NCBI GenBank assembly: GCA_947259715.1
Contig: CAMYNR010000167.1
Coordinates: forward strand, 37,282-75,855
Direction: 5' to 3'
Length of the DNA stretch: 38,574 nucleotides
Origin: an uncultured Desulfuromonadales bacterium
Lineage (GTDB): Bacteria > Desulfobacterota > Desulfuromonadia > Desulfuromonadales > Geopsychrobacteraceae
The notes under the pieces are model-generated. The model searched no databases. It was not told the origin of the DNA and saw only the letters and a list, made by a program, of their open reading frames with translations. How positions within the stretch are numbered: position 1 is the first letter of the stretch; each line of letters starts with the position of its first letter. Positions 13,751-31,368 of the stretch are shown in pieces. The translations under genes and the position numbers were made by a program.

Positions 13751-13764
13751 CCTAACTACCTCCG

Positions 13765-13787
13765 TATTGCCGCAGCCTGCAGCAATA
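13765..13787 (-). promoter_or_regulatory. Leader hairpin next to the Shine-Dalgarno of the 7-heme cytochrome
   Basis: Minus strand TATTGCTGCA-GGC-TGCGGCAATA: 10 bp stem with one G-U and a 3-nt loop, 1 nt from GGAGG. Confidence 0.6.
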
Positions 13788-13846
13788 TAGATAGACGTCA
13801 ACAGAACTCTTAATCAATTAATCTTTCAGGGTTCAGGGGGAAAATT

Positions 13847-13973: not shown

Positions 13974-15371
13974 TCAATCCAGAAGAACAATAGCAGTTCC
14001 TTGACCAGCCAAGGGAACTGTTTTTCGCAAGAACTGCCCCGGCAGGTCGACGACCGACAGTTGCGGCTGACTCGCGCTTAACACATAAATGGCCTGGCGC
14101 AGTTGCGAAACCGCCATCTCGGAAGGCGAATCTCCGGCAGGGATTCTGCGAAATGAAGTCTCTTGCCCCGGCACCAGCACCGAGAGGGTAGCCCCGCGCT
14201 GATTGCTGACATACACTGCTTGCGGGCTGACCGCAAGCAGTTCGCTCGGCTTGAGTCCGACCGCAACCCGGGCCAAGAGCCTGCCGGTCTGATACTCATA
14301 ACTGGCGACAATATTGGCCGCCTGCTCAACCACCAACAATGAGCCTGCGGTGTAGAGCAGATCGCTCACCTGCTGACCGACTGGAAAGGTTTTCTGCACC
14401 GCTAGGGATCCAGCACTCAAGATACTGATCTGATGGGCTTTCGGCGCAACAACCGCCAGACGCTCAGGGACCTCCGGGATAAGGGCAATCTGCTCAGGTC
14501 GATAACCGACCCGCTGCTTGGCGAGGACCGATCCGGTCGCCAGATCGACTTTTAACACCAGACTGCTGACGGCGTCGGTGACATAGGCATTGCTTCGATC
14601 CGCGCTCAACACAAAGTGTTCCGGAGCGACTGTCCCCGGGAGCGCAATCTGCCCAATCAGCCTGGCTTTGATGCAATCATAAACAAAGATTGAGCGGTTG
14701 CCGGGGCTTAACACGTAAAGCTTGCGCAAGCGTGAATCAAGCTGTAAGTCACCGATCGGACCGGGCACAGCAAAGGAGGCGACAACTTTATTATGATCGG
14801 TCCGCAGCAGGTAGACCGTCGCCAGGTTCCGGCAGGCGATATAAGCCAGGCCGGTGCTCAACTGGATCCGCTGCGCCCAGGCAGAAAACCTCGGCCGGGC
14901 AAATGCGCCCTGGCCCCGCTGACTCTCCAGTGACCAGTCAACAAACAGACAGCGGCTCTGTTGGCTTTCCAGCAGCAAAGGCTCAGCCAAGCTCAGTTCA
15001 ACCATCTCGCTTCTGCCCTCGGGGGCCACCGGCAAGCCATCGATCGACAAATCCTTCAGCTGAAAACGTATCCGGCGATGTTCCCCTGTCGGCGCCAGGG
15101 CGACGCCAAGCAGCTGTTGCCCACGGCTTTTCTTTCCATCGACCTGGACCGGCGCAATCCCCAATTCGACCCAGACACCATCCTTTTGGACGGCAAGGTT
15201 TTCAAGTATAAAGCGCCCTCCACCAGAGGCTGTTCCAGAAGAGGAGAGGTAGACCGTCAGCAGGGCTTGCCCTTCGCTTGGGACAGGCTCATGCAGCGGT
15301 TGCAGCTGAGGTACTGAACAGTTGCAGAGCAGCAGAAAGCTCAGCATAAATATAAGTCTGGTCAATATCAT
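13974..15371 (-). CDS. Lipoprotein with DUF4382-like N-terminal region and YVTN-type beta-propeller
   Basis: Signal with candidate lipobox LLLCNC; C-terminal repeats such as 'KLYVLSPGNRSIFVYDCIKARLIGQIALPG', 'NAYVTDAVSSLVLKVDLATGSVLAKQRVGYRPEQIAL' and 'AVYVSNQRGATLSVL'. Confidence 0.78.
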   Translation of the reverse strand: MILTRLIFMLSFLLLCNCSVPQLQPLHEPVPSEGQALLTVYLSSSGTASGGGRFILENLAVQKDGVWVELGIAPVQVDGKKSRGQQLLGVALAPTGEHRRIRFQLKDLSIDGLPVAPEGRSEMVELSLAEPLLLESQQSRCLFVDWSLESQRGQGAFARPRFSAWAQRIQLSTGLAYIACRNLATVYLLRTDHNKVVASFAVPGPIGDLQLDSRLRKLYVLSPGNRSIFVYDCIKARLIGQIALPGTVAPEHFVLSADRSNAYVTDAVSSLVLKVDLATGSVLAKQRVGYRPEQIALIPEVPERLAVVAPKAHQISILSAGSLAVQKTFPVGQQVSDLLYTAGSLLVVEQAANIVASYEYQTGRLLARVAVGLKPSELLAVSPQAVYVSNQRGATLSVLVPGQETSFRRIPAGDSPSEMAVSQLRQAIYVLSASQPQLSVVDLPGQFLRKTVPLAGQGTAIVLLD

Positions 15372-15410
15372 AATTCCCTTTACAGGAGCCTCCACAGTCT
15401 GCACCCGCGG

Positions 15411-16781
15411 CTAGAACGTCCTGCGAACGCCCCCTTCTGGTGCCGGTATCCGTTTGCCGTTCGGCAAGATTCCCGGGTTCTCGGCGTCGACATAGCTGCC
15501 ATGCCCATGGCAATAGCCGCAGCCGATCGCCTGCACCTCGCCAGCTACGTCATGACAGCGAACACATTGCGTGCTGTCGCCCGGCGGATAGGGTCGATCC
15601 GCGGCGCTATGGTGCACGGTCTCCCAGCGATTGATCTGCTGGCTGTTGCCGCTCCCCGCGCTTGCAGCATCATCAGCATGGCACTGTCGACAGAGGTAGC
15701 CCAAGGAGGTCGATCCGCTGCCCGCACTGACCTTGCCCCGCAAAGCCGAACCATTCACGCCGCGGCGAATCAGGCGGGCATTCTGCGACCCATGCGGCTC
15801 GTGACAATCGCTGCAGGCCAACAGATAATCGACAAACTGATGACGCGGATCGTCATATGGGGCGACCGCTTGCAAACTTTGAGTAAAGGCATTCATGCCA
15901 TGCTTATCACCTGAAAAGGGGGAATCGCCCCCCTGGGCCGCCCAATCAACCCGCACCACCGACCTTGCCAGGGTCGTCGAGTAAACCGGCTCTGCGTGGC
16001 AACGCAGACAGAAGCTGTTGTAATCCGGAAGTTGCGAACCATCCGCGAAAGCGACCTGAACGCCACCCGGCTCATAGCCGCCGGATAGACCGGCCGACAG
16101 GGGAGGCTGATAGCGACCAGCATATCTGGCCATGGTTTCCTCGGCCTGGTCACCCCAGAGTTCATCCGGCTCATCCGGTAATGAGATGGCACTGAATTCA
16201 GGGTTTGCCACATGGGCGCGGTTGCGTCTGGCACGATGGGAGTTGTGGCAGGCGCTGCAAGGTGATGAATCCTGGCCAAACCCCGGAAAACGCTGGGCAT
16301 AATTCCAGATGTCATAAAGATTATGGTAGGAACTCTCCAGGCCACCAGCCGGCTGATTGAAGGCATCCAAAATCGACAGCGGTCCACCGGTCGTCAATCC
16401 ACCAAAATTGCGCGAATAGTCAAAATTGCCCATCGCAGCGGCTCCTGCCTGAAGAGAACCGACCGAGGTATGGCAGGAAAAGCAGAACAGGTCATCCTGC
16501 TGATAGGGACCAAGCTGGCGCTGCCGGTTGAAGTTAACCGCATACAGTGAAGTCCCTTCGGCTTGTCCAATAGATCTGGCCAGCGCTTTGTCATGGCAGT
16601 GGCCACAGCTGCCGGTGGCTCGAGGCGCACTGCGCTGCCCGGTCTGATCGAGACGCCTGACCCCGAACTGCGGATCGCCGTGGGCCGAGTCCCGGTAAGA
16701 TCCGGCCTGCAGACTGCTCAGCGGAGCTGTTATGGCAATCAGCAGCAGACTGATGATAAGGCCGTTGATGGATTTCCTCAT
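15411..16781 (-). CDS. Secreted octaheme c-type cytochrome
   Basis: Signal peptide; 8 CXXCH (CGHCH, CFSCH, CSACH, CLRCH, CSDCH, CRQCH, CVRCH, CGYCH). Confidence 0.9.
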   Translation of the reverse strand: MRKSINGLIISLLLIAITAPLSSLQAGSYRDSAHGDPQFGVRRLDQTGQRSAPRATGSCGHCHDKALARSIGQAEGTSLYAVNFNRQRQLGPYQQDDLFCFSCHTSVGSLQAGAAAMGNFDYSRNFGGLTTGGPLSILDAFNQPAGGLESSYHNLYDIWNYAQRFPGFGQDSSPCSACHNSHRARRNRAHVANPEFSAISLPDEPDELWGDQAEETMARYAGRYQPPLSAGLSGGYEPGGVQVAFADGSQLPDYNSFCLRCHAEPVYSTTLARSVVRVDWAAQGGDSPFSGDKHGMNAFTQSLQAVAPYDDPRHQFVDYLLACSDCHEPHGSQNARLIRRGVNGSALRGKVSAGSGSTSLGYLCRQCHADDAASAGSGNSQQINRWETVHHSAADRPYPPGDSTQCVRCHDVAGEVQAIGCGYCHGHGSYVDAENPGILPNGKRIPAPEGGVRRTF

Positions 16782-16784
16782 CGG

Positions 16785-17852
16785 CTAGTCCTTACTGGTA
16801 TGGCAGGCAGTGCAGCCATCGTTGCTGTTGAGATAATCCCAGCGCAGCAGCTTGTCGTAGGGGCTGCCGTGGCTGCGATGGCAGCTGACGCAGGTGACGA
16901 TCGTATCTCCCTGAAAACTGACCTGGACAAGGGGATTACTGACCACCGTGCTGGCGACCGGCACATCGACCCGATAACTCTGATTCGGCCCGCCGTAGCC
17001 ACGGACCTCATCCCCCGGGGCGGCATTGCCCAGATCGTATTCAACCGGGTGGCCGAACCAGTTGCCGGCCCCGCCGCTGTGGAAATCGTTGTGGCAACGC
17101 ATGCAGAGCGAGCTGATGGTCGAATTATCCATGCTTTGATCGACCCCTTTGTACTGGTTGTGAGCGGTCAAAGTCGGCGTTAATTCCCATTCCGGATCTT
17201 CAAACCCGGCAACCCCGATCAGCATGCGAAATCCTTTGGCGGGGACAGTGCCCGGATCGGTCAGGGCGCCATCCAAACCTTTATGATGGCCGCCAAAGAT
17301 CGCCGAAGCGGGGCTTTCTTTGCTGTGGGTACCATGGCAGCCATACACCCCGGCGCAGGTGACCTGCTGATTGACCGGCCAGTTCCCGTTCCCCGGGGTG
17401 CTGCCATCCGCCGCCGACAGGCTGCCGTTAAAACCGGGCGGCAAAGTTAAAAAGGGATCAGTACTGGCCAGGCCAGTGACATTATGCCCCTTGAGTGGGT
17501 CACCACTGGCCACCCAGTAAAAGTTTCCACCGGCCAGGGTATTGGTATTCTCTTCGGTTCCGGTGGCGGCATAGATCGGGGCGGTAGTTGACATGACGAA
17601 GGGGGTTTCCCCGCCCGCGTTGACGCCGGTATGACAACCGATGCAATCGGTATTCAGCAGGGCGTCATAGGGCCCCTGATCGCCCCATTCCTGCATCGCC
17701 TGGCCATCCTGACTGTAATGCATCGTGTGGCAACTGATGCACTTGCCGGTCACCGCCGCTTGCACCTGCGGCACTGCCAACAGCAATCCGACAACGGTAC
17801 AGAGGGACACGATTGCTTGCAGGAGATCTCGGATAGATCGGTATTCAGCCAA
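16785..17852 (-). CDS. OmcS-like extracellular multiheme cytochrome (5 CXXCH + 1 CX5CH)
   Basis: Signal peptide ending VQA; CISCHTMHYSQDG, CIGCH, CAGVYGCH (CX5CH), CMRCHNDFH, VTCVSCHRSHGSPYDKLLRWDY, CTACHTSKD; same layout as the 11376-12461 gene. Confidence 0.9.
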   Translation of the reverse strand: MAEYRSIRDLLQAIVSLCTVVGLLLAVPQVQAAVTGKCISCHTMHYSQDGQAMQEWGDQGPYDALLNTDCIGCHTGVNAGGETPFVMSTTAPIYAATGTEENTNTLAGGNFYWVASGDPLKGHNVTGLASTDPFLTLPPGFNGSLSAADGSTPGNGNWPVNQQVTCAGVYGCHGTHSKESPASAIFGGHHKGLDGALTDPGTVPAKGFRMLIGVAGFEDPEWELTPTLTAHNQYKGVDQSMDNSTISSLCMRCHNDFHSGGAGNWFGHPVEYDLGNAAPGDEVRGYGGPNQSYRVDVPVASTVVSNPLVQVSFQGDTIVTCVSCHRSHGSPYDKLLRWDYLNSNDGCTACHTSKD

Positions 17853-17878: not shown

Positions 17879-18772
17879 TCAGCGGGAGAAAATTTCGACC
17901 CGCCCGCTGCCTTCATCGACCACGCAGAGTCGCTCCTGCCAGTCAAAGAGTAAATCCGCACCATTCCACAGCTGGCCGGGCCGCTTGCCTTTGCCAAGAA
18001 AGGAGAACTTCTTCTCTCCATTGCGAGAAAAAACAACAACTGTCCCGGCATGCCGGTCAAGCAGATAGAATTGGCCGGATCGATCGACTTCCAGTGCAGA
18101 CGGAAACTCCAGGCCGGTAAGCTTGATCCGCTTTTCGACCTTGCCGGACAGGTCCAGCTGGAACACGCTGCTGGTCAAGGTATCCAGGCCCCAGAGTCGG
18201 TCATCACCAAGTTTAAAATCGGTAAAACCCTTGAAACCGGCATCGCCGGAAAAGCTTTGCACAACCTTGAGGTTGTCATCCAGCCGCACCACCTGCCCCT
18301 TCAGCCGGTCAAGGCCATAGAGCCGGTTGCGGCTGTCGACAGCTAACCTGGAGAGGAAAAGTTTACTGCCATCGGCATGCCGGGGGGTAAAGCGGCGGAC
18401 CTCCTTTTCACGTGGATTGATATAAAGCAGCTCATTGCTGGACCGCTCAACCACCCAGAGGCTACCGGTACCGGTGCGCACCATGGCCACCGGTCTCTTC
18501 AGCTGCCCTCCGGCGGTAAAGGCGCTGAGAAACTTACCCTCCTGATCAAAGGACACCAGTTGCCCGGCGGCGGCGTCAACCACGTAGTAGCGTTTGACCT
18601 GAGCATCGACCGCCACTGCCACCGGCTGTTCGAGACGCACGCCGGAGTCTTTCTGCGGCAGCTGGCGTAACGAAGACCAGGATCCCCCGGCCGCCAGAAC
18701 CAGCTCACTCCCGCCGAGCAGGGCGAAAAAAACCCCCAGGCTCAGCGCCATTTTTATCGAGTACATGTTCAT
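17879..18772 (-). CDS. Secreted NHL-repeat beta-propeller protein
   Basis: Signal peptide; repeats 'QPVAVAVDAQVKRYYVVDAAAGQLVSFDQEGKFLSAF', 'FPSALEVDRSGQFYLLDRHAGTVVVFSRNGEKKFSFLGKG'. Start set to the internal ATG after AGGAGA. Confidence 0.82.
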   Translation of the reverse strand: MNMYSIKMALSLGVFFALLGGSELVLAAGGSWSSLRQLPQKDSGVRLEQPVAVAVDAQVKRYYVVDAAAGQLVSFDQEGKFLSAFTAGGQLKRPVAMVRTGTGSLWVVERSSNELLYINPREKEVRRFTPRHADGSKLFLSRLAVDSRNRLYGLDRLKGQVVRLDDNLKVVQSFSGDAGFKGFTDFKLGDDRLWGLDTLTSSVFQLDLSGKVEKRIKLTGLEFPSALEVDRSGQFYLLDRHAGTVVVFSRNGEKKFSFLGKGKRPGQLWNGADLLFDWQERLCVVDEGSGRVEIFSR

Positions 18773-18788
18773 TCTCCTGAACCTTTTC

Positions 18789-19958
18789 TCAGTAACTCTG
18801 ATGACACTGCACGCAAAGCCCGCGCTCACCGCTGCCATGGAGGAAATATTTATACATGGTCCCCGAGTTGGCGTCATGGCAGGTCAGACAGTCAACCTCC
18901 CGGCCGTTACGGGGGTCGATCACCCCCTCGCCCTGGGGATGGGTAAATTCCCCATGCAGGTCATGACAGCGAGCGCAGACATTCTGCCCATCGATTAACA
19001 TGGCCGGGTTGTCTCCGCCGTGCCCATAGTGACAATTGGAGCAGCTGCTCCAGTCCTGATGCTTGTGCAGCATCTTGTCGCGTTTGGCAAAGGTATCTTC
19101 ATGGCAGCCACGACAGACCGCACCTTCATTGGTCGGCAGCAGACCGGGCCGGTCACCCACATGGGGGTTATGGCAGAGGGTGCAACTGTTTTCCGCCCCA
19201 CCGACACCGAGATGGCTGTGGACCTTATTGAAGCTGTCGAGGGTCTGCTGGTGACAATCAAGGCAGAGGTTACTGCCGCCCTGCCCGGCATGACACGCCT
19301 GACAGTTCTTCTCGGCAAACGGGGCATGGCTGACCGCCCGCAGCAGCACCGCATCGGAGCCGCCATGGGGGTTGTGGCAGCCGAGGCAGTCGAGCGGTTG
19401 CAGATTGCGCCCCAGATGAGCGGACTGCAGAGCCTGACTCGGCTGATGACACTCGAAACAAAGGGCACTGCCGGAGTTTTTCAGCAGCCGGTAATCATCG
19501 CCGGCATGGGCGCTGTGACAGGCATTGCACTTGCCCTGCTGATAAGGTTTATGCGCGACCTTAAAGGTCTGCTGAGAGGACTCATGACAGCCATAGCAAA
19601 GATCGGCGCCGCTGGCTTTTAACAACCCAGAGTTGCCCGATGCATGGGGCTCATGGCATTCGCTGCAGCGGCCATCCTTGACCGGCTGATGGGGCACGGC
19701 ACTCGCCTTGACCCGCTGTTCCACCGATTGATGGCAGGAGTAACAAAGCTGTTCTTCCTTGTCCAGCAGCAGGCCGGCGTGTCTTGAGACATGCGGGCTA
19801 TGGCAGCGGTCGCACTGCTGACCGGCGACCGGCTGATGCACCACCCGCCCCTTGAACTTGGCAGCGTCGTGGCACTGGTAACAATCTTTAGCCAGGACCG
19901 TCAGCGGCAGACTGAGCAGCGCCAGGGTCATGAAGAGATATCGGATCATAGGCATCAC
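18789..19958 (-). CDS. 16-heme paired-CXXCH c-type cytochrome
   Basis: 16 CXXCH motifs counted in 389 aa, in repeating H-x-P...CxxCHxPH...LL...LCxxCH units; signal peptide. Confidence 0.93.
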   Translation of the reverse strand: MMPMIRYLFMTLALLSLPLTVLAKDCYQCHDAAKFKGRVVHQPVAGQQCDRCHSPHVSRHAGLLLDKEEQLCYSCHQSVEQRVKASAVPHQPVKDGRCSECHEPHASGNSGLLKASGADLCYGCHESSQQTFKVAHKPYQQGKCNACHSAHAGDDYRLLKNSGSALCFECHQPSQALQSAHLGRNLQPLDCLGCHNPHGGSDAVLLRAVSHAPFAEKNCQACHAGQGGSNLCLDCHQQTLDSFNKVHSHLGVGGAENSCTLCHNPHVGDRPGLLPTNEGAVCRGCHEDTFAKRDKMLHKHQDWSSCSNCHYGHGGDNPAMLIDGQNVCARCHDLHGEFTHPQGEGVIDPRNGREVDCLTCHDANSGTMYKYFLHGSGERGLCVQCHQSY

Positions 19959-21931
19959 TGACCTCCCGGATGACAGGGAGTGCAGTTCCCATTGGCAAAA
20001 GGTTCATGTTTGACCGGCAGGGTCAGAGACGCATCCGGTCCGCCGTGGGGGTCATGACAGCTAAGGCAGCTGTCCGCAGACGGCAGCAGATTGTTGTGCG
20101 CCAGAGTCAAGGCATTTGGGCTGATATCGTGGCAATCGCCGCAGAGTTTTGCATCAGCCTGCTTCGCCCGGCTTTTTTGCGGAGCGTGAGGATCGTGGCA
20201 AGCCTGGCAGTTGCCCTCGATGGCCGGTTGATGGCCTTTGCCTTTGTCCCAATAGCGATCGACCTCATGACAGCTCAGACAGAGCTGCGGCCGTTCCTGC
20301 AGCAGGTAGGCGGGCTCGTCGTTGCCATGGGCATAATGGCAGACCGCACAGTTCTGATGCGCCGTTGGGGTGCCCGGCTGAACCTTTTGCGGGGCATGAC
20401 AGCTGACACAGAGTTCGCCGGCGGCGCCGGTCAGCAAAAACGGCTGCTCACTGCCATGGGGATAATGGCAGAGCTGGCAGCGCCCCTGCTTGAAGGGCTG
20501 ATGTCGATTCGGTTGCTGACGCTCGGTTTCAATAGTGCCATGACAGCTGCCGCAATTCTCGGCCCCGCTCTTGATCAGCAGTTTGGCCTGATCGGAGCCG
20601 TGCGGGTTATGGCAAGCGGAACAGCTGCCAGCGACGAAGGGACGGTGCAGGCTGGGCTGCACCAGGGTCTCGCCGACCAACTCATGGCAGTCGGCACAGA
20701 GCAGCCGTTGCTGCTGCTTGAGGATCCCGGCATGCAGGCTCTCGTGGGGCAAATGACAGCTCAGGCAATCGCCGGCACTGGCCGGCTGATGCTTGACCCG
20801 TTGACGCTTGGCATAATCAGCATGACAGTCTAGGCAGAGCTGGTTGCCAGGCTTTCGCAGCAGCGCCGTCTGTCCAGCAGCAGGCAGATGAGGCGCATGG
20901 CAAACCAGGCAATCCCCTTTTTCGGCGGGGGCATGCTGATGACCGGAACCTTCTGCCGGGGCCTCGGGACCAAAGCTCTTGAATTGATGACAATCAAAGC
21001 AGAGCTGCTGCGGCAGCTTTTTCAACATTCCGGAATGATTGCTGGCATGCACCTGGTGACAGCTGGTGCATTCTCCGTTGGTTGCCGGGGCATGGGCTCC
21101 GCTGGCAGCATAGCTTTTCAGCTCGGCCGCATGGCAATCGACACAGAGTTGATCAGCGCTGGCATTGACTGCAAAGGGTTGTCCACTGGCGGCCGGCTGA
21201 TGACACTCCTGACACTGCCGATTTGCCACCGGCTGATGAACGGTATTTTTCAGCAGCTGCTGATTATCGGCCGAGTGAACATTGTGGCATTCGCTGCAGG
21301 ACGACTTGACCCCATAACCGCCATGCTGGCGGACAAAGGCTTGATTGTCGATTTGATGGCAATCCTGGCAGAGTTCGGTCTCTGCTTTGATCAGCAGCTT
21401 GGTCACGCTTGAGCCATGGGTTGCATGACAGGTGGCACAGCCCTTCTCCAATGGCGCATGCTTGAATGCCTGATTGAACGGTGCGCGCTCATGGCAGGCA
21501 AAGCAGCTCTCGTCCCGCTCAGCAGAGAGCAGATACTTTTCCGGGGCGTTATGCGGCTGATGACAGAGGTTGCATTCGCCCTGCTTGACCGGTGGGTGGA
21601 TTTCCGTCGCTGCTTTAAGCTCTGCGGCCAGTTCGGTATGACAGAAAAAGCAGATATTCGGCACCGGCGCTTTCAGGTAGGCTCCGCCAACCAGGCCGTG
21701 CTTGCGATGACAGCCGGCACAATCACCTTTGGCCACCGGCTGATGGACCACACCGGCAGAAAACTTTTCCTGATATTCGTTATGGCAATCCAGGCAGGAT
21801 TTGCCGCCTTTGGTTGGCGGGGCGCCAGGCGCGCAGGCACTCAGCAGGACAACCACGAGGACTGCAGCAGCTGCCAGCAGCCCGCTGTGAAATACTTTCC
21901 ATTTATGATTCATTGCCTGTTTCTTCCTCAT
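19955..21931 (-). CDS. 26-heme paired-CXXCH c-type cytochrome lipoprotein
   Basis: 26 CXXCH motifs counted in 658 aa; lipobox LLSAC; repeated 'H(Q/A)PxxxGxCxxCHxPH...LLxxxxxxLCxxCH' units. Alternative start 21913. Confidence 0.93.
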   Translation of the reverse strand: MRKKQAMNHKWKVFHSGLLAAAAVLVVVLLSACAPGAPPTKGGKSCLDCHNEYQEKFSAGVVHQPVAKGDCAGCHRKHGLVGGAYLKAPVPNICFFCHTELAAELKAATEIHPPVKQGECNLCHQPHNAPEKYLLSAERDESCFACHERAPFNQAFKHAPLEKGCATCHATHGSSVTKLLIKAETELCQDCHQIDNQAFVRQHGGYGVKSSCSECHNVHSADNQQLLKNTVHQPVANRQCQECHQPAASGQPFAVNASADQLCVDCHAAELKSYAASGAHAPATNGECTSCHQVHASNHSGMLKKLPQQLCFDCHQFKSFGPEAPAEGSGHQHAPAEKGDCLVCHAPHLPAAGQTALLRKPGNQLCLDCHADYAKRQRVKHQPASAGDCLSCHLPHESLHAGILKQQQRLLCADCHELVGETLVQPSLHRPFVAGSCSACHNPHGSDQAKLLIKSGAENCGSCHGTIETERQQPNRHQPFKQGRCQLCHYPHGSEQPFLLTGAAGELCVSCHAPQKVQPGTPTAHQNCAVCHYAHGNDEPAYLLQERPQLCLSCHEVDRYWDKGKGHQPAIEGNCQACHDPHAPQKSRAKQADAKLCGDCHDISPNALTLAHNNLLPSADSCLSCHDPHGGPDASLTLPVKHEPFANGNCTPCHPGGQ

Positions 21932-23546
21932 GCAATTCCTGGTTCAGCTTTTTCCATACTGAACGATTCAGCTTAATGGTAGAACGATCTCGCAACTGCT
22001 TAACCAACCCTGCGCGCTGCTCCTGAAAACGATCCGCCTGCAATTGATTCTTGATCTGCCCCTTGACCTTCTCCAGGGGAGCGACCTCAGGTTCTCCCTT
22101 GCGGACCAGTTTGATAAACAACAGGTTGTCGCCATCCTTCACTCCGGCACTGACCTGTCCGGCGGAGAGCTTCCTGACCTCGGCCTGAACGACCGGCTGC
22201 AAATGCGCCAGGGGAGTTTTCTCAATTTGAATTCCAGCAGGGGAGATCGGCTCCATGACTTTAAAGAAATCTTCCCCCGATTTAATCCGTTTTTCCAGTT
22301 GTCTGGCCAGCTTCAACTCATTGGTTTTGACGACTGCTAATTCCACCATTCCCTGCCGTGAGTACTTATCCTGATGCTGCCGGTAATAGGCTTCGATATC
22401 GGCATCGCTCACCTCAACCTGTGGCTGGATCACCAGAGCTTCCAATTCTTTGATAAGGCGATGCTGAGAATAGAACTGAAAGGTGTGCTTGAGGGGCGGC
22501 TCTTCTTCATACCGCCTGGCCAGAGCTTCCATGCCGGTCAGGGTCTGAACCAGCAGATCGTTGACAATCCGCTGTTTTGCGTCCTCAAAATTTTCAGCGG
22601 ATTTAGTGGAATGACTGCGTTTTTTCCGTGATTTGACCACAGCTTCATAAATAAAGCCGGCGGGAACTTCCGTTTTGCCGATGATCACGGCTTGCTTGGA
22701 TTTAAGTTCATCATCTATGCCATCTGGTTGAATTGCGGCGATAACTTCATCATTGACCTGAACATTGTAATCAGCTTTAAGCTTTTCCAGCAGCTGGTAG
22801 GTCAGCTCGTATTCCTGCTGCTTTAAGGAGTCGCGGATCAGTTTCTGTTTGATGATTTCAAAGTCCGCCTCATTCCCCTCGCCCCGATCAAGGACCTCAA
22901 TGAAATACCAGGAATGGCCGAAGCTGGCCGGGCCTCCCGCTTCACCAGGTTTTAAGCTCATGGCCAGGGGTTGCAAGGATTCAGGAATCCGGGTGTAGCG
23001 CATTGGGCCGGTCGCCTCCATCTGCTCAACAACTCCCTGAAGGCCAGCTGTTTCGACGACCTGATCCAGTGGGGTGCCCTGGTCCATGTATTTCTTGATT
23101 TCCTGCGCCTGCTCTTCGTCAGTGACCGCCAGCATGCGCAGATTCAGGATCGGGGTGTAGCCCTCTTTGTACAGCTGCCAGAGTTCATCCCGGGTTGGTA
23201 TGGTTTTGCGCGCATCGACCTCTTCCCCCTTCAATTGCATCAGGGCCCGGACTTTCAAAAAGACCTCAAGCTTTTTCCGGTAGCTGGGGCTGTCCTGCAA
23301 CTGCATATCTCTGGCCTCCTGGGCCAGCAGCATCCAGTCGATGAATTCATCAGGGGATTCCTGTAAATTCATACCCGGTTCGCGCCATTCGCGCCACCAG
23401 TGCCGATAATCTTCCGGGGTAAACTCTACCCCATTGATGGTAACCAGCTCTTTGCCGCCAAACAATGCAGAAGCGTTGTCGACAGAGCTCAGCAGAACCA
23501 GCAAGGTGAACAAGCTGAAACAAATCGTTTTGATCTTTATTGACAC
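21903..23546 (-). CDS. Secreted parvulin-type (PpiC/SurA-like) peptidyl-prolyl isomerase with two modules
   Basis: Signal peptide, SurA-like N-terminal helical region, parvulin-like segments around 'ILNLRMLAVTDEEQAQEIKKYMDQGTPLDQV...FGHSWYFIEVLDR' and 'MVELAVVKTNELKLARQLEKRIKSGEDFFKV...GDNLLFIKLVRK'. Confidence 0.8.
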   Translation of the reverse strand: MSIKIKTICFSLFTLLVLLSSVDNASALFGGKELVTINGVEFTPEDYRHWWREWREPGMNLQESPDEFIDWMLLAQEARDMQLQDSPSYRKKLEVFLKVRALMQLKGEEVDARKTIPTRDELWQLYKEGYTPILNLRMLAVTDEEQAQEIKKYMDQGTPLDQVVETAGLQGVVEQMEATGPMRYTRIPESLQPLAMSLKPGEAGGPASFGHSWYFIEVLDRGEGNEADFEIIKQKLIRDSLKQQEYELTYQLLEKLKADYNVQVNDEVIAAIQPDGIDDELKSKQAVIIGKTEVPAGFIYEAVVKSRKKRSHSTKSAENFEDAKQRIVNDLLVQTLTGMEALARRYEEEPPLKHTFQFYSQHRLIKELEALVIQPQVEVSDADIEAYYRQHQDKYSRQGMVELAVVKTNELKLARQLEKRIKSGEDFFKVMEPISPAGIQIEKTPLAHLQPVVQAEVRKLSAGQVSAGVKDGDNLLFIKLVRKGEPEVAPLEKVKGQIKNQLQADRFQEQRAGLVKQLRDRSTIKLNRSVWKKLNQELHEEETGNES

Positions 23547-24121
23547 TTAGCAACTCCCTTTTCAATCCAGTCGGTAATAATTTCTTGAGACATCCTGGCC
23601 ATCAGGCCAGTTATGGTTGTCACATTTCCAAAATGCATCGCTCTGCGATACTCATCTCCCCAGCGATGATGCAAACTCTGCAGGACCAGTTGGCCGCGCC
23701 GCACATCATAAAGTTTCAGCTGCATGGCGACAACCGGCACCGCGCCCGGACCCCGGCCAAGGTCCATGCCGACCTCGGTCAGTCGGCCTTGAACCACTGC
23801 ATCGATCTGCAGCTTTTCCTGCAGGTCGGCATAGTGAAAAGATTCCAGCAGATCGCCTGGCAGCAAGCGGTGCCGGAGCCGGAACAGACTGACGTTCCCT
23901 TCCGGTTGCACCTCAAAGCGGCCTGAGTTAACCAGGGCGCCATGAAAAATTCGCTGGCCGGTCACACCGGCCTGGTCCGCGCGGGTCCAGTTGTCGAAGG
24001 GCAGCACCGCGACCCGGCAGACGCTTTCCGGCTCTGCGTTCGCCATCACCCGGGTCTGCAAAGCCCCCTGCCCGGCGCAGCCGGTCAGCAGGAGGAAAAG
24101 AAAAATAGCAAAGCTTCGCAT
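23537..24121 (-). CDS. CsgG/GNA1162/LpoB-like lipoprotein
   Basis: Lipobox LLTGC; 'CRVAVLPFDNWTRADQAGVTGQRIFHGALVNSGRFEV...QIDAVVQGRLTEVG...MQLKLYDVRRGQLVLQSLHHRWGDEY'. Confidence 0.68.
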   Translation of the reverse strand: MRSFAIFLFLLLTGCAGQGALQTRVMANAEPESVCRVAVLPFDNWTRADQAGVTGQRIFHGALVNSGRFEVQPEGNVSLFRLRHRLLPGDLLESFHYADLQEKLQIDAVVQGRLTEVGMDLGRGPGAVPVVAMQLKLYDVRRGQLVLQSLHHRWGDEYRRAMHFGNVTTITGLMARMSQEIITDWIEKGVAKCQ

Positions 24122-25614
24122 CAGAAATCCGGCACCCAGGACTCGGCCTCTTGCTCTTCGACGGCCTGCTGTTCAACTTTCATCAACAATTCTTTACGGG
24201 CAATCCGGCGGCGGTTCCCAAGTTCGTCAACCCCGTCGAAGCTCAAGTAAACGGCATTCTCATCGCCAAGCGGTTTAAACTCTGTTTCTGTCGGCAGTCG
24301 CTCCCCGTCAACCTGTAGCAGGATCTTTCCCTGGCCCGATTTCAGCTGCGCCTGCCAACTGCGCAAAGAGAACTCGGCGCTGACCTCATTGAGACTGAGA
24401 AAATACTTGCCAGCGCGCTGACTGACCCGCGCTTCAACCAGCGGCGCGTTGCGCTGCATGACGACTTGCCGGGTAGCGCTGGAGCGGTTTCCGGCCAGAT
24501 CCCAGACCTGCAGGGTAATCTCGTAGGGACCATCGGCCAGATAAAAACCGTCAGCGCCATGCCCTTCCCAGACCAATCGCTCCGGCATGTCGCCTTCATA
24601 TTCGTTACTGACCAGCAGCAGGCCGTCCTCGTTGCGAATCTCCAGGCCCCAGCGCCCCATCGGCTTTAAGTCGGCGATCCGGGGCAACAGCAGCAAGCTG
24701 TCGCGGAACACCCGACGACCATCGATCTGCTGACCATTCTTCAGTTCGATGGTCAACCCGGGCGGATTATTGATCACCTGGTATGAGGCGATGTTTTCCA
24801 CCCGCTCGGCGAAGCGACCGCTGCCCCACTCGAGGATTAAATCGATCGGATACTGCCCTTCCTGCTCCGGAGCAAACCACTTCCCGGAATAGATACCGGT
24901 GCGCGGATTGGCCTGCAGCAGACTGCGTCCCGCTTTGCTCTCAGCGAAAATCCGGGTTGGCCGGGCATCGAGAAAGCGGATCTTCAGAGTCGCGTCGATC
25001 TGCTGGCGCCCCTTGACATAGGCAGGAAACAGCTGCATGCCGGTCAGCTGGTAATCGCGCCGGTCAGGCACCCCTGTCTCTGCCACCTGCCCCTCCAGGC
25101 GGAGCAGTAATTGGTCCAAAAGGGGGCCGGACAGATCATCGATGGTCTGCGGCTGTCCCAAGGCCAGGAAAGTCACCTTCTCAGCTAAGCTGGTGGCCCC
25201 GGTCTCTGACCAGATCGGCATTCCGGTGACCGTATCCAGAGCGGTAAAGGTCAGCCCCAGCTGTGGATTGTCGCCACCGATTTCAGTGATAGTGCCCAGC
25301 AGGGCGACGACACAGCTCAGGTCTTTACCGATCTTCTTAATCAGAAAGCTGTCCAGGTAGCTGAAAGAGCGCAGCTTATTGGCGCTCATGAACTTGACCA
25401 CCTGGTCCTGAGGCACCATCTCCACCCCGAGCCGCTGGAGGGAGTTGGCGACAACCTGGGTGAATGGCAGATTGATCCCATTCACCCCTTGGCTGAAGTC
25501 AGCCATCGGCAGCAGCGCGACCCGCTGGGCCTGGGCGGGAGCATTTGCCAGACCGAGCAGCAGAATCGAGCAGACAGCGAAATGCAGTGCTATGCGCTTA
25601 ACAGCAATCAGCAA
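24121..25614 (-). CDS. Secreted protein with CsgG-like N-terminal domain and C-terminal beta-rich (FlgD/Ig-like) region
   Basis: Signal peptide; 'RVALLPMADFSQGVNGINLPFTQVVANSLQRLGVEMVPQDQV...CVVALLGTITEIGG...FTALDTVTGMPIWSETGATSL', then beta-rich segment with 'DGPYEITLQVWDLAGNRSSATRQVVM'. Confidence 0.68.
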   Translation of the reverse strand: MLIAVKRIALHFAVCSILLLGLANAPAQAQRVALLPMADFSQGVNGINLPFTQVVANSLQRLGVEMVPQDQVVKFMSANKLRSFSYLDSFLIKKIGKDLSCVVALLGTITEIGGDNPQLGLTFTALDTVTGMPIWSETGATSLAEKVTFLALGQPQTIDDLSGPLLDQLLLRLEGQVAETGVPDRRDYQLTGMQLFPAYVKGRQQIDATLKIRFLDARPTRIFAESKAGRSLLQANPRTGIYSGKWFAPEQEGQYPIDLILEWGSGRFAERVENIASYQVINNPPGLTIELKNGQQIDGRRVFRDSLLLLPRIADLKPMGRWGLEIRNEDGLLLVSNEYEGDMPERLVWEGHGADGFYLADGPYEITLQVWDLAGNRSSATRQVVMQRNAPLVEARVSQRAGKYFLSLNEVSAEFSLRSWQAQLKSGQGKILLQVDGERLPTETEFKPLGDENAVYLSFDGVDELGNRRRIARKELLMKVEQQAVEEQEAESWVPDF

Positions 25615-25617
25615 CGC

Positions 25618-26190
25618 CTACTCCTCGATGGTCCCCAGCAGCCGCTGAGCGAGTCGATAACTCACCTGGTTGATATCTGCGCCGACAAAGCCGAACATGC
25701 GGTTAAAGGTGCTGTAGCCGGTTTCGCTTCCGGAACTCTGCCAGATAATCTGACCGGTTTTCACATCGATCAGGCGCAAGGTGGCGGCGACCACCGGATA
25801 GCTGTAATTGCCATTCTGCCGCTCACTGAAATCCTCCACCGCACCGGCGATATAGGCCTGGACGCTGAGTTCCTGGCCGAGCCGCTGCGCAGTGGCGAGA
25901 TCGAGGGTTTCCTGATCCTTACGCACCAGTTCTTCGCGCAGAAAGCGTTGCGCCTCGCCCTTCTCCACCACCTCAAAGAGACCGCGGCGGAGAATTTCCG
26001 TGGTCACCGCATCCTGAAACCGCTCATGAGCAAAGGTTTCGTCGGTGTGGTTTTCCAGCGGCAGAACCACTACCCGCTTTACGTAGCCTAGCCCCAGAGT
26101 CTCTGCGGCATAATGCGCCGGACCGGACCGGGCGCAGCCGGCAATGCCCAAGGTCAGGAGCAGCAAAAGTAAGACCAGGTATCTTTGCAT
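25618..26190 (-). CDS. CsgG/GNA1162/LpoB-like lipoprotein
   Basis: Lipobox-like LGIAGC; 'VKRVVVLPLENHTDETFAHERFQDAVTTEILRRGLFEVVEK...VQAYIAGAVEDFSE...ATLRLIDVKTGQIIWQSSGSETGYS'. Confidence 0.7.
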   Translation of the reverse strand: MQRYLVLLLLLLTLGIAGCARSGPAHYAAETLGLGYVKRVVVLPLENHTDETFAHERFQDAVTTEILRRGLFEVVEKGEAQRFLREELVRKDQETLDLATAQRLGQELSVQAYIAGAVEDFSERQNGNYSYPVVAATLRLIDVKTGQIIWQSSGSETGYSTFNRMFGFVGADINQVSYRLAQRLLGTIEE

Positions 26191-26276
26191 GTCATTCACC
26201 CTCTTTCCAACAAGATTTATCCGCTTTAGCGTACTCTTGGTTCTCGTCACTCATATCTCTCAAAACGCCCCGGCTC

Positions 26277-26322: not shown

Positions 26323-28422
26323 TCAATAATTGGCATTCACGGTTGAAGATAAAGCCCAGCTGTCGCCACCTTCGGAGGAGATGAAGCTGCCGGTCGTCTG
26401 CCAGGACAGATGCCGGGTGATCAGCCAGCTCAGGGTCGAATTGTACTGCTCGCTCTCTTCATCGCCAAATTCATAGGCCAGACCGAAAATCGCCTGAAGC
26501 TTACGGGAGGCGAGCAGGGTCGCATTGCCAGCCAGAGTATTCTGGTTGGTCTCTTCGTCACGATTGAAACTGCCGCCGAGCTGCAGGACATCCGACGGGC
26601 GGTAATTGACGCTCACCCCATAACGGGTTGAGGCATCGCTGATGTCCGCCTCATCAACCGGTCCATCTGTGCTGTTCTCAACATAGCTGGCATTCAGATT
26701 GACATCCAGCTTCGGTGACAGCCGGGCATTGGTATTGAGAGTCACCCCCATGGTCGTCGTCTCGCCGCCGCTCTGGTTTTCCGTGCGGCTCCAACTATTG
26801 AGCAGGCTGGCAGTCAAATCTGGATAGATGATCGCGTTAAAGATCGCGTTGACCGAGTCACTGGTGGTTTGCCGGGCAGCGCCGTCGTCCGATTCGGTCC
26901 GGGTATAGCCGAGGGAAAAATCCAGCGTCCGGAGCAGGGCTGTGTTCATCGAAGCGGCATAGCTGCGGGTATTGCGATCTTCGGCATCCTCGATCTTATC
27001 GATGCTGTCACTCAAACTGAGAGTAAAACTCAGCCGCTCGGTCGGAAAATAGCTGGCGCTGATCGATTGATTCAGCTGTTCGCTGTCCGGACCGCGGTTC
27101 TGCTCATTGTCAACCCGGCGGAAATTGTAGCTGACCTGCCAGCGTTCATTCGGCCGGTAGGTCAGGCCGATTTCGCTCTGGTGGCTGATGCTGGTCCGGC
27201 GAATGCTTACTCGCGGCGCGGCGGAGGTGCTGATCTCACCCGCCTCAATCTCGGTGACAAAGACCGGGTCAACCGAAACAATGCTAATATCGGAAACCGC
27301 TTTGACAAAGCGGCTGTTGGCAGTATTCAGCAGGTCAAGAACAACGACGGTGCGAAAATTGTCCAGCCGGTAGGTGGCGGGGATATTCGCCACCTGGGTC
27401 CAGCTGTTGCCATCGTCACTGGTATAGACCCGCCAGGAAAGCAGTCCTTGCAAGGCCAGGCTCAGCTCCCGATCCAGCAGAATCTGCAGGCGATCGACGG
27501 GTTGAAAATCAACCTGAACAGCAATATTCTGACTCAGCTGACTGCCGACTATATCAATCCCCGCGGAGGTGATCTCATCATTATCATTCAGCGCGCCGTT
27601 GCCTGCTAAGGTCCCATTGGCCGGGGTATCGTCCCCGCCCGAGAAAGCAAAGGAGATACTGACCGGCAGGAGAAAATCTCCCCCACCCGTGTTCGGCGTT
27701 TCAGTGACGGTTTCATTGTCCCGATACTGTTGGGAGGCGAAGACCGTCAGCGTTTCTGCGAAAAAGCTGCGTGAGTACTCCAACTGAGCCAGGTGCTCGA
27801 TGTTTTCTGTTGACGAGCCATCAAGCTGATCATCGGTCGTCGCGCTGCGAAAATCGTAGAGCATGGCAAAGTCGGACCACTCGTGCTCAATACTGCCGCC
27901 AAAATCGATCGATTCGGTATCCACCTGGCGTGGCGAACCGTCATCATAATTGTGACCCTGGTTAAAAAAAGCGCGCAGGGCAGGCCAATCCTCTTTCAAG
28001 GTGAAAAATGTCCCGCCCCAGGAATTGTCCGTGGTCGAGGGCGAGCCCTCCCGATTCACCCGATTCTGCGAGGCGCTCAGACCCAGGAAGAACAGGTCAT
28101 TCCGCGTATCAAGGGCAATCGATGGATTGATCGAATCGGTGTCGACCCCCTCCGACGGCAGATTTTCGTTGTAGCGCAGTGAGCCGGACAAGGTCATGAA
28201 CTGGCTCAACTGCTTATTGTAGTTCAGGGTATAGCTGTGGCTGAACTGCGAGGTCGACTCGATATCGCCACCGGTCTCCCGATAGGTCCAGTTCCCGGTA
28301 AACCCGAGCGGATCCCCGGCCTGCACCGGAATCGCCAGGGCCAATAGCAGGCACAGCCAGCAACCGAGCGGCAGCAAGCGCAACGCGGGATATGTGTCAG
28401 AACTGATCTTCAACATCGGCAC
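26323..28422 (-). CDS. Outer-membrane beta-barrel protein with a discoidin/F5-8C-like insertion
   Basis: Signal peptide, many alternating amphipathic strands (e.g. 'LTASLLNSWSRTENQSGGETTTMGVTLNTNARLSPKLDVNLNASYVEN'), C-terminal NANY; central 'LLSWRVYTSDDGNSWTQVANIPATYRL...NSRFVKAVSD'. Confidence 0.78.
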   Translation of the reverse strand: MPMLKISSDTYPALRLLPLGCWLCLLLALAIPVQAGDPLGFTGNWTYRETGGDIESTSQFSHSYTLNYNKQLSQFMTLSGSLRYNENLPSEGVDTDSINPSIALDTRNDLFFLGLSASQNRVNREGSPSTTDNSWGGTFFTLKEDWPALRAFFNQGHNYDDGSPRQVDTESIDFGGSIEHEWSDFAMLYDFRSATTDDQLDGSSTENIEHLAQLEYSRSFFAETLTVFASQQYRDNETVTETPNTGGGDFLLPVSISFAFSGGDDTPANGTLAGNGALNDNDEITSAGIDIVGSQLSQNIAVQVDFQPVDRLQILLDRELSLALQGLLSWRVYTSDDGNSWTQVANIPATYRLDNFRTVVVLDLLNTANSRFVKAVSDISIVSVDPVFVTEIEAGEISTSAAPRVSIRRTSISHQSEIGLTYRPNERWQVSYNFRRVDNEQNRGPDSEQLNQSISASYFPTERLSFTLSLSDSIDKIEDAEDRNTRSYAASMNTALLRTLDFSLGYTRTESDDGAARQTTSDSVNAIFNAIIYPDLTASLLNSWSRTENQSGGETTTMGVTLNTNARLSPKLDVNLNASYVENSTDGPVDEADISDASTRYGVSVNYRPSDVLQLGGSFNRDEETNQNTLAGNATLLASRKLQAIFGLAYEFGDEESEQYNSTLSWLITRHLSWQTTGSFISSEGGDSWALSSTVNANY

Positions 28423-28472: not shown

Positions 28473-29267
28473 TCAGTTCACCAGATTGTGCGGGCCAATA
28501 TGGCAATGGATGCACTGCGGGTAGGTTTCATGCAGTTCGTCAAAATGCGGCTGTCCATGACAGGTACGACATTTGGGAATGACCTTGTGCTGAAACTTGT
28601 GGCAATACACACAATTGAACTGGTGGTGTTTGGTCCGATTCTCCGAAAGCAGCACCGCCGGCCCGGGATGACAGGAGGCGCAGAAAGAAACCGGCACATT
28701 GTTGTCGTAGGCCACCTTCAGCGGCATGTGCGGACGGTGGCACTCAAGACAGTTGGCATAGCTCTGTGAATCCTGGTGCGGCTCGTGGCATTCCAGGCAG
28801 GTCAGAAATTGACCATGCTGCTGATGGCACTCCTTGCTGTCGAGCACCGAATGATTGCTCGGATAATTCAACAACTCCTGCCCCTGGTTGGGGTGACAGG
28901 TCATACAGGCAGGTCGAACCTGCGAAGCCCTGGCGAAATCGATATTCAACGGGCTGTGCGGCCGATGGCAGTTCAGACAATCCGGCGAACTGAAATGGGG
29001 ATTGCCGCCTGACTCATGGCACAGAGAGCACTCGGGGATGGCGTTGGCGCCCCGCGGCGGATGCTCCTGATGGCAATCAGTACAGCCGATGGCATCGCGG
29101 TGCTGTCCGCCAGCGGCCTCGATCTCGGCGATCTGACTGCTATGGCACTTTTGGCAGTCACTTGGCAGCAATTCCGGCGCGGCAGCAGCGCTCGCCACCG
29201 CTCCGGCAGCAAAAGGCAGCAGCACCAGTGAGACAAGCAGAGAGCTGGTTATGAAAAAGCTTTTCAT
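28473..29267 (-). CDS. Secreted 11-heme c-type cytochrome (plus one SXXCH variant motif)
   Basis: Signal peptide MKSFFITSSLLVSLVLLPFAAGAVASA; 11 CXXCH counted; extra S-K-E-C-H in register. Start set to the internal Met of the 28473..29354 ORF. Confidence 0.9.
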   Translation of the reverse strand: MKSFFITSSLLVSLVLLPFAAGAVASAAAAPELLPSDCQKCHSSQIAEIEAAGGQHRDAIGCTDCHQEHPPRGANAIPECSLCHESGGNPHFSSPDCLNCHRPHSPLNIDFARASQVRPACMTCHPNQGQELLNYPSNHSVLDSKECHQQHGQFLTCLECHEPHQDSQSYANCLECHRPHMPLKVAYDNNVPVSFCASCHPGPAVLLSENRTKHHQFNCVYCHKFQHKVIPKCRTCHGQPHFDELHETYPQCIHCHIGPHNLVN

Positions 29268-29289
29268 CCTCGTTGACCTTTTCCCACGG

Positions 29290-31191
29290 CTAAATCCGAT
29301 CGCGGCGATCGCGCGGATGGCACTGCATACAGACCTTGGCGACCCTCTGGCCATGACACTTCACGCAGAAATCCACCTTGATCACAGCTGCCGATTTGCC
29401 CTGAATAGTCGGGGCCGGCGCAGCGATCCGTTCCGGCGTGGCTGCGGCCGCAGTCGGCACAGGCAACAGAATTGTTTGCGCGTCCTGGCGCGGCGGATCT
29501 TGCGGCGCAGGAGCAGGCAAATCTTTCTTACTGGATTGAATTACAGCGGCACGAGCATTCGAGCGTGGCAGGGCGTGAATTGCAGAATGAACCTGGTCAT
29601 TTGGCGGCGCTATCTCAAAGAGCTGCTCTCCCGCCATTTCTTCCAAACTGGGGGTAACAACTTTGCCATCGGGGTGAATTCCTCCAGAATCTCTCGCTAG
29701 GCCTGACTTTCCTTCGTCAACTGGCTCAGCAACCGGTTCTTTCACGGGCAAAGCCGAGTCGGTAGCAGCACTTTGCGTGCTTTTAATTTGCAAATTATCT
29801 GCCACCGGTTCTCCGCCGGTTGACGCTGGGGTCTCCGACTGGGCAGCGGGAATCCGCAACTCGGTCGCCTCACCGCGGGTCTTCAGCAGAGCCGGCAGCA
29901 GCTCTTCGCTGCGCAACTGCTCCGCAACGCGATATCCTTCAAGGGGATCACCGTAGGGTCCCACCAGAACTTGCTGCCAGACCCCGCGGGCGCCACGATC
30001 GAGGGGTTGAATATGGACCGGGTAACCTTTGGAGCGCAGCTTATCGGCCAGCTGCTGAGCGCTGCTCTCATCGCGGCTGATCGAAGTCAGCACCAGATAA
30101 TCGCCTACCGCATCAGCCTGCAAATCGACATCGATATGCCCAATGGCGATCAACTCCGCTTCGGCGACCGGTTCTGCAGCGAAAGGCTCAGGCCGACCAG
30201 CCTGCCCGGCGATCCTTTCTCCTGGCTCGCCGTAAATCGGCGGCAGGCCGCCAACAAATTCAAAGACCTGAATCCGATGATTAAAGGTGTCTGCAACCAG
30301 CAGACGTCCCTGGCCATCAACGATAATGTCGTTCGGATAGTAAAACCAACCGCGCCCCTGCCCGAGGCCGCCGATTTCGAACAGATATTCGCCGCTGACA
30401 GCGTATACCGATACGGTGTGACGCTGATAATCGACCAGATAGACCTGGCGACGAAACTCATCGATAGCGATCCCGCGGGGCCGCGATAACTTACCCGGCT
30501 CCCCCCCTTTTTCGCCAAATTTATAGAGATAGCGTTCGTTCTGATCGTAAACGTAGACGCGGCCCATAGATTCACTGACAAAGTAGAGGCGGCCGGCGCT
30601 GTCGATGTCGATGGCCAGAATTGACGCCTTTTCTTTAACCCCCAACACTTCGTCAAGGGGCTCAATGGTGCGCAGATAGCGGCCTTGCGGATCAAGCACC
30701 ACGACCCCGCTGCCATTCTGGCCGACAACATAAAGATTTCCCGTGGTACCAACCACCATCGCCAGCGGGGAAAAACCGGGCAGGTTGGGGAAATAAATTT
30801 TTTGTCTTGGCAGAAAAGCGCCGTCGTAGACGGCAATATGCGGCCTGGGTTCAGTCTCGCTGGCGCCAAGGCAGACATAAAGCTTGCCATCCTTGAGGAA
30901 ACTGCCACTGATGCTGTTAAGGCCGCGACCGGCACCGATGGAGAGGTAGGGGAAAAAATCGGCGGTCAACACCACCAGCTTGTTTTTCAAAGGGCTGACC
31001 AGATAGATTTCATCTTCCAGCGGATCGTAAGCGAGGGAAGCGGGAAAACGGATCGGCAGGCCGGCCTCATCCTGGGTGATCAGTTTGACCGAGCGTATCG
31101 GTCTGACCTGCAGATTTTCTGTCCAACCTGCCGCAGTCGGCGAGCAGAACAGCAGGCAGAGCAACACACAGCCCAGGCGATAGACGGACAT
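29290..31191 (-). CDS. NHL beta-propeller - SPOR-like - C-terminal diheme fusion protein
   Basis: NHL repeats ('LSRPRGIAIDEFRRQVYLVDYQRHTVSVYAVSGEYLFEIGGLGQGRGWFYYPNDIIVDGQGRLLVADTFNHRIQVFE'), SPOR-like 'DYLVLTSISRDESSAQQLADKLRSKGYPVHIQPLD...WQQVLVGPYGDPLEGYRVAEQL', C-terminal CVKCH/CMQCH. Start at ATG 31191 after GGGGGAG. Confidence 0.85.
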   Translation of the reverse strand: MSVYRLGCVLLCLLFCSPTAAGWTENLQVRPIRSVKLITQDEAGLPIRFPASLAYDPLEDEIYLVSPLKNKLVVLTADFFPYLSIGAGRGLNSISGSFLKDGKLYVCLGASETEPRPHIAVYDGAFLPRQKIYFPNLPGFSPLAMVVGTTGNLYVVGQNGSGVVVLDPQGRYLRTIEPLDEVLGVKEKASILAIDIDSAGRLYFVSESMGRVYVYDQNERYLYKFGEKGGEPGKLSRPRGIAIDEFRRQVYLVDYQRHTVSVYAVSGEYLFEIGGLGQGRGWFYYPNDIIVDGQGRLLVADTFNHRIQVFEFVGGLPPIYGEPGERIAGQAGRPEPFAAEPVAEAELIAIGHIDVDLQADAVGDYLVLTSISRDESSAQQLADKLRSKGYPVHIQPLDRGARGVWQQVLVGPYGDPLEGYRVAEQLRSEELLPALLKTRGEATELRIPAAQSETPASTGGEPVADNLQIKSTQSAATDSALPVKEPVAEPVDEGKSGLARDSGGIHPDGKVVTPSLEEMAGEQLFEIAPPNDQVHSAIHALPRSNARAAVIQSSKKDLPAPAPQDPPRQDAQTILLPVPTAAAATPERIAAPAPTIQGKSAAVIKVDFCVKCHGQRVAKVCMQCHPRDRRDRI

Positions 31192-31368
31192 CTCCCCCCA
31201 GTTTTTTCTCTGCAGATTTGAGATCATTCCGGCAAAACCCAATCCAGTTTGAAACGCGGCAATTACTTACCAGGACAGCTGTGGAGGCAAAGATACACCT
31301 TTAAAGCCGGGCATTATTACACCATGCTGGCATACCTTTTGGTTTTTTCCCCTCAATAGAGCAGACCC

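Follow-up and report, generated by a model that had tools for sequence, protein, structure and literature searches.

How folded, heme-loaded cytochromes cross the outer membrane for nanowires is an open question. It is posed here by three adjacent genes, called F, GN and GC, in a 38,574-nucleotide stretch of DNA from an uncultured Desulfuromonadales bacterium (the whole stretch analysed, referred to as the window). They stand in an operon of the order outer-membrane barrel, F, GN, GC, parvulin, 26-heme cytochrome, 16-heme cytochrome and NHL protein (Table 1), and a first, sequence-only reading had seen in them a possible curli-like exporter for cytochromes. Our analysis points to F, GN and GC as the three PelC-fold subunits of a machine of the Osc type that exports OmcS-like cytochrome filaments across the outer membrane, a reading to which we assign a probability of roughly 0.7.

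Table 1. Genes of the operon and its surroundings, in window coordinates
Feature	Positions	Strand	Basis
NHL-repeat protein with SPOR domain	29290..31242	-	NHL 1.8e-11, SPOR 1.9e-6; first gene of syntenic block
Multiheme cytochrome	28473..29354	-	11 CXXCH in window, 12 in most relatives
Outer-membrane beta-barrel, OscE-like	26323..28422	-	OMP_b-brl 7.9e-6, below cut-off
F: PelC/LpoB/CsgG-fold lipoprotein, OscF-like	25618..26250	-	Pfam, PDB profile, lipobox, 55/55 osc-like loci
GN: exported protein, PelC-like domain, orthologue of OscG N-terminal half	24121..25614	-	hhalign, AlphaFold, VIA, tree
GC: PelC-fold lipoprotein, orthologue of OscG C-terminal half	23537..24121	-	AlphaFold, VIA, tree
PpiC-type parvulin, OscH-like	21903..23546	-	Rotamase_2 7.8e-16, synteny
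26-heme lipoprotein cytochrome, OscI-like	19955..21931	-	26 CXXCH, synteny
16-heme cytochrome, OscJ-like	18789..19958	-	16 CXXCH, synteny
NHL-repeat protein, GSU2493 position	17879..18877	-	NHL 4.3e-6, synteny
OmcS-like cytochrome, likely cargo	16785..17852	-	5 CXXCH + invariant CX5CH; family profile
8-heme cytochrome	15411..16781	-	Heme motifs; no close PDB relative
Beta-propeller-like lipoprotein	13974..15404	-	Family HMM matches OscD-position protein of Geobacter-type operons; weak Pfam propeller match
OmcS-like 7-heme cytochrome	12617..13801	-	CHTMHNSQNG start, SCHRAHGSPY end
OmcS-like cytochrome	11376..12461	-	5 CXXCH + CX5CH; phmmer OmcS
5-heme cytochrome, fibronectin/purple-acid-phosphatase-N-like middle	10012..11196	-	Motifs, Pfam

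Fold of F, GN and GC

The genes nearly touch, with spacings of 3, -1 and -10 bases from F through GN and GC to the parvulin gene. F encodes 210 aa as listed; its true start is probably an in-frame codon near 26190-26202. GN (497 aa) carries a PelC-like domain at residues ~28-180, followed to residue ~480 by about three Ig/FN3-like domains that the sequence-only reading had missed, and GC comprises 194 aa. The motifs on which that reading relied can be found in all three genes: a start motif (VVVLP, VALLP and VAVLP in F, GN and GC, respectively), a middle motif (GAV, GTI, GRL) and a strand motif (DVKTGQIIW, DTVTGMPIW, DVRRGQLVL), the last of which lacks its T and W in GC. The two clear lipoboxes it had noted are indeed present, in F (AGC) and GC (TGC); GN carries an ordinary signal peptide instead. 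With a simple pattern, lipoboxes were detected in most F and GC sequences (22 of 25 and 19 of 23, respectively) but in only 2 of 25 GN sequences.

Two smaller features concern the termini. Cys35 and Cys193 of GC are kept in 22 of 23 aligned sequences and likely form a disulfide that ties down the C-terminus at the first strand. The end of GN is a conserved W(V/S)xDF tail (WVxDF in the window) behind a low-confidence linker, possibly a docking peptide.

F passes the Pfam cut-offs of LpoB (7e-13), CsgG (4.8e-6) and GNA1162 (7.7e-6), the three families to which the genes had been compared. Its CsgG score of 26.5 bits stands against a curated cut-off of 20.8 (a figure reported for F only), and it passes for GNA1162 only barely, at a borderline 26.0 against 25.9. 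GC yields a single sub-threshold Pfam match (TolB_N, 0.006), and the PelC-like part of GN none. When alignments of the orthologues (A1, A2 and A3) were compared as profiles, hhalign gave probabilities of 99.8 for F and GC, 98.5 for F and GN and 98.7 for GN and GC, which settles the homology of the three. In a PDB profile search, PelC was the best match of each (F, 6e-9; GC, 1e-5; GN, a weak 0.0018). The AlphaFold model of GC (pLDDT 88) matched PelC with a Z score of 16.7 in VIA, compared with at most 11.6 for CsgG. For the GN model (pLDDT 85.6), a Foldseek query with the whole protein returned a list filled by Ig/FN3 proteins, and VIA exposed the PelC-like domain: residues 28-179 matched FlgT (Z 13.7) and PelC (Z 12.4).

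The profile searches, together with the predicted structures of GN and GC, confirm that all three proteins have the CsgG/LpoB/GNA1162/PelC fold, and the earlier assignment of three adjacent genes to the CsgG/LpoB superfamily is upheld. The nearest solved relative of F and GC in both fold and sequence is PelC (PDB 5t0z, 5t11, 9h80) rather than CsgG; for the GN domain, PelC is tied with FlgT. LpoB, GNA1162, the TolB N-domain and FlgT share the fold superfamily, but they score below PelC for F and GC and have unrelated functions.

This ranking bears on what the proteins might do. They could be regulators similar to LpoB or TolB, acting as monomers that reach through the peptidoglycan and open or license the wall for the machine; LpoB is the top Pfam family of F, and the first gene of the block encodes a SPOR domain, a peptidoglycan-binding module elsewhere. 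However, LpoB reaches only 0.017 in the PDB profile search in which PelC gives 6e-9 for F, F lies far below the NCBIfam LpoB equivalog cut-off (47.6 bits versus 110.55), and the operon itself encodes no peptidoglycan synthase. We regard this role as improbable.

We judge about equally improbable that F, GN and GC themselves form a curli-like channel with CsgG-type hairpins, leaving the barrel to do something else. CsgG belongs to the same superfamily as F, which passes its Pfam model, and it secretes the subunit of an extracellular filament. Yet the fold of GC spans 162 residues, compared with 208 in the membrane form of CsgG; PelC spans about as many residues as GC or fewer. The shortfall of ~46 residues has the size of two hairpins, and the GC model has no room for the two transmembrane hairpins per subunit that are a trait of CsgG; this speaks against a pore that inserts itself in the manner of CsgG. 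The window also encodes a separate, dedicated barrel, although a barrel was a criterion in counting the 55 loci described below. A viral structure search returned only distant CsgG-like and LPS-assembly-like matches. The analogy to a curli pore is therefore better replaced by a PelC collar under a separate barrel.

An Osc-type operon with OmcS-like cytochromes

In PMC12977616, the omcS-companion (osc) cluster of Geobacter sulfurreducens is presented as the 'nanowire secretion' cluster of OmcS. PMC13194489 assigns OscE, OscF and OscG to secretion, OscH to folding and OscD to morphology, and equates GSU2501 with the hexaheme OscC, GSU2495 with OscI and GSU2494 with OscJ. GSU2495 carries 26 hemes (PMC2996986) and GSU2497 is listed as a lipoprotein (PMC3495685). 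What OmcS filaments do physiologically is a matter of dispute (PMC11077965, PMC13194489). The letters D to H used here (propeller, barrel, F, G, parvulin) were assigned by counting along the gene order. OscEFG is reportedly described as channel-like in the abstract of Shen et al. 2025. GSU2881-2887 was considered as the counterpart cluster and rejected, as the papers point to GSU2493-2504.

In the rest of the class, the related operon consists of hexaheme cytochromes, a propeller, a barrel, F, one longer protein, a parvulin, 26-heme and 16-heme cytochromes and an NHL protein, and matches GSU2501-GSU2493 nine-for-nine in gene order. The window has barrel, F, G, parvulin, 26-heme, 16-heme and NHL genes in this same order, with OmcS-like cytochromes and a propeller nearby. 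OscG is not one protein here but is split into GN and GC; the window thus holds a variant of the Osc-type operon, not Geobacter osc itself. It differs further in that the Ig-like domains of GN lie behind the PelC-like domain, in its upstream genes (the NHL-SPOR protein and a 12-heme-type cytochrome), and in the downstream position of its OmcS-like cytochromes, which have either 5 CXXCH plus a CX5CH motif or 7 CXXCH. HMM comparisons link the barrel to those of Geobacter-type operons (2e-29 to 1e-65), and the C-termini of its relatives show the usual aromatic ending of outer-membrane proteins. Pfam found no TPR in it, and no solved barrel clearly resembles it by sequence comparison.

A profile built from the 16785-17852 cytochrome together with 12 orthologues finds OmcS (6ef8) with 1.4e-13 over most of its length, and more weakly the filament cytochrome entry 7tfs (0.0039). 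The cytochrome at 11376-12461 finds OmcS on its own with phmmer (3.2e-4 over residues 27-334), and that at 12617-13801 has start and end motifs in common with the other OmcS-like cytochromes. Single-sequence searches with the cytochromes at 16785-17852 and 15411-16781 gave no OmcS match, and a search with that at 10012-11196 gave no relevant match. The matches and common motifs indicate that the operon encodes its own OmcS-like proteins, which, judging from sequence, are likely the export cargo. A C(A/S)G(T/V/L)YGCH motif (CX5CH) is invariant in all 13 members of the 16785-17852 family (alignment A4), and it is also present in the 11376-12461 protein. It aligns with the third CXXCH of OmcS and may be a non-canonical heme site, bringing the number of hemes to six.

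These neighbours help in weighing two other roles. The barrel and the 12- and 26-heme cytochromes might do no more than move electrons as a porin-cytochrome conduit, with the PelC-like proteins as a scaffold that seats the cytochromes. A barrel with large cytochromes does resemble porin-cytochrome clusters, and this barrel weakly matches the GSU2204 family. We nevertheless find a conduit alone unlikely, since the operon also encodes OmcS-like cytochromes and a parvulin and since the Geobacter cluster has been linked to OmcS secretion. Electron conduit and protein export are in any case compatible, not exclusive, functions. Polysaccharide export of the Pel kind would fit the finding that no solved structure is closer to F and GC than PelC; with cytochromes, NHL and propeller proteins as neighbours and no Pel synthase, deacetylase or TPR barrel among the operon genes, we give it hardly any weight.

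The conserved operon bears out the link to filament cytochromes, to a parvulin and to an outer-membrane barrel. Cytochrome export, as the sequence-only reading had proposed, is right in substance and agrees with the published osc cluster, for which it is already known; the curli-like half of that proposal gives way to PelC as the nearer relative. What is added here is the split form, the tandem architecture of OscG, the relationship to PelC and the invariant F-GN-GC triad. The literature searched, in which the primary osc paper (Shen et al. 2025) is represented by papers that cite it, contained no statement of these four points, and among the papers listed for OmcS together with CsgG, PelC, LpoB or TolB none linked them.

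Distribution and order of the three domains

A contig scan with F returned eight named loci, and one with GN no relatives. Of 136 genomes in the order, 32 contain relatives of GN; across the phylum, 395 genomes were sampled and 105 of them carry F-like genes. In the order, the block reads, with few exceptions, NHL, 12-heme, barrel, F, GN, GC, parvulin, 26-heme, 16-heme, NHL, OmcS-like, and the operon order is kept across order, class and phylum. The F gene of one locus (L063) is 80% identical to that of the window.

OscG of the fused kind proved to contain two PelC-like domains in tandem; in all 19 fused-type loci compared, the best match in the window is GN for the first of them and GC for the second. 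In a maximum-likelihood tree of 140 domains, F (100/95), GN (99/89) and GC (99/91) form separate clades, each of which is divided into both operon kinds. One locus in the tree, L061, bears the label of the first search yet belongs to the fused kind by the later locus count. Because each clade holds both kinds, the triplication of the paralogues must predate the split and fused operons. By sequence, then, GN and GC are orthologues of the N- and C-terminal halves of OscG. The window layout may have arisen by fission of OscG, or the Geobacter layout by fusion.

All 55 osc-like loci counted in the order, class and phylum (those with a barrel and a large cytochrome) contain F, GN and GC in that order, 33 as split and 22 as fused genes; one has an extra F. 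F or GN served as the query with which these loci were collected; the presence of the query domain is therefore biased, and only the remaining domains count as free evidence. F-like genes at cytochrome-free places (L144-L146, L152) occur without GN and GC. The machine thus consistently carries three distinct PelC-like domains, and it extends through the phylum with varied OmcS-like cytochromes as likely cargo.

Several loci depart from the common layout. The genomes G075 (L035, L107), G108 (L043, L112) and G125 (L036, L106) each hold both a split and a fused operon, which suggests two machines for different cytochromes. In the long fused OscG proteins (760-1152 aa; L102, L107, L112), Ig/PKD-like domains precede both PelC-like domains, the opposite of window GN, where they follow. 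L139 (G330) combines two F-like genes with a fused GN-GC in one operon. L143 (G425) pairs F-like and GC-like genes with a cytochrome of 1049 aa and 42 hemes, and neither a barrel nor a parvulin was matched within 20 kb; it is perhaps a different system with the same fold.

A possible collar beneath the barrel

PelC offers a structural precedent for the arrangement of these domains, and through it OscF and OscG gain both a fold and a model. In PelBC, 12 PelC subunits sit on one 16-strand barrel and are held there by their acyl chains, by Asp119 of the D-loop and by the stalk and TPR region of PelB (PMC12141448). Both systems place lipoproteins beside an outer-membrane barrel gene. PelC, however, is one gene forming a homo-12-mer, whereas the window has three paralogous domains and no Pel genes.

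The most likely mechanism of the Osc-type export machine follows these lines. F and GC would be anchored by lipid in the outer membrane, on its periplasmic side, and GN, with its Ig arms, would be soluble. Together they would assemble into a hetero-oligomeric collar seated on the OscE-like barrel at its periplasmic rim, much as PelC sits on PelB. To this collar the parvulin would hand the folded multiheme cytochrome, after which the subunits would cross through or beside the barrel and polymerise outside. Cytochromes of the 26-, 16- and 12-heme types would wire the filament to the periplasm. The split form would do the same job as the fused one.

That F, GN and GC assemble into a hetero-oligomer, as the sequence-only reading had suggested, is plausible, and the invariant triad adds weight to it. 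A more specific version, which we offer tentatively, is a pseudo-symmetric collar of exactly three ancient, non-interchangeable PelC-fold domains in the order F-GN-GC, breaking the symmetry of the ring to seat an asymmetric, folded, heme-loaded cytochrome under the OscE barrel. Four copies of each domain would give the 12 subunits of the PelC ring (4 x 3 = 12), and three copies the nine of CsgG (3 x 3 = 9), to name two conceivable stoichiometries. The naturally split genes allow every domain to be deleted, tagged or expressed on its own, which makes such a hetero-ring directly testable.

The contact with the barrel may not be that of PelC in every detail. PelC docks in part through the TPR region of PelB, for which Pfam gave no counterpart in the barrel here. 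At the place aligned with the docking Asp of the PelC D-loop, 20 of 25 F sequences carry Tyr, so that the docking chemistry would differ; the invariant Gly of the D-loop is kept in F.
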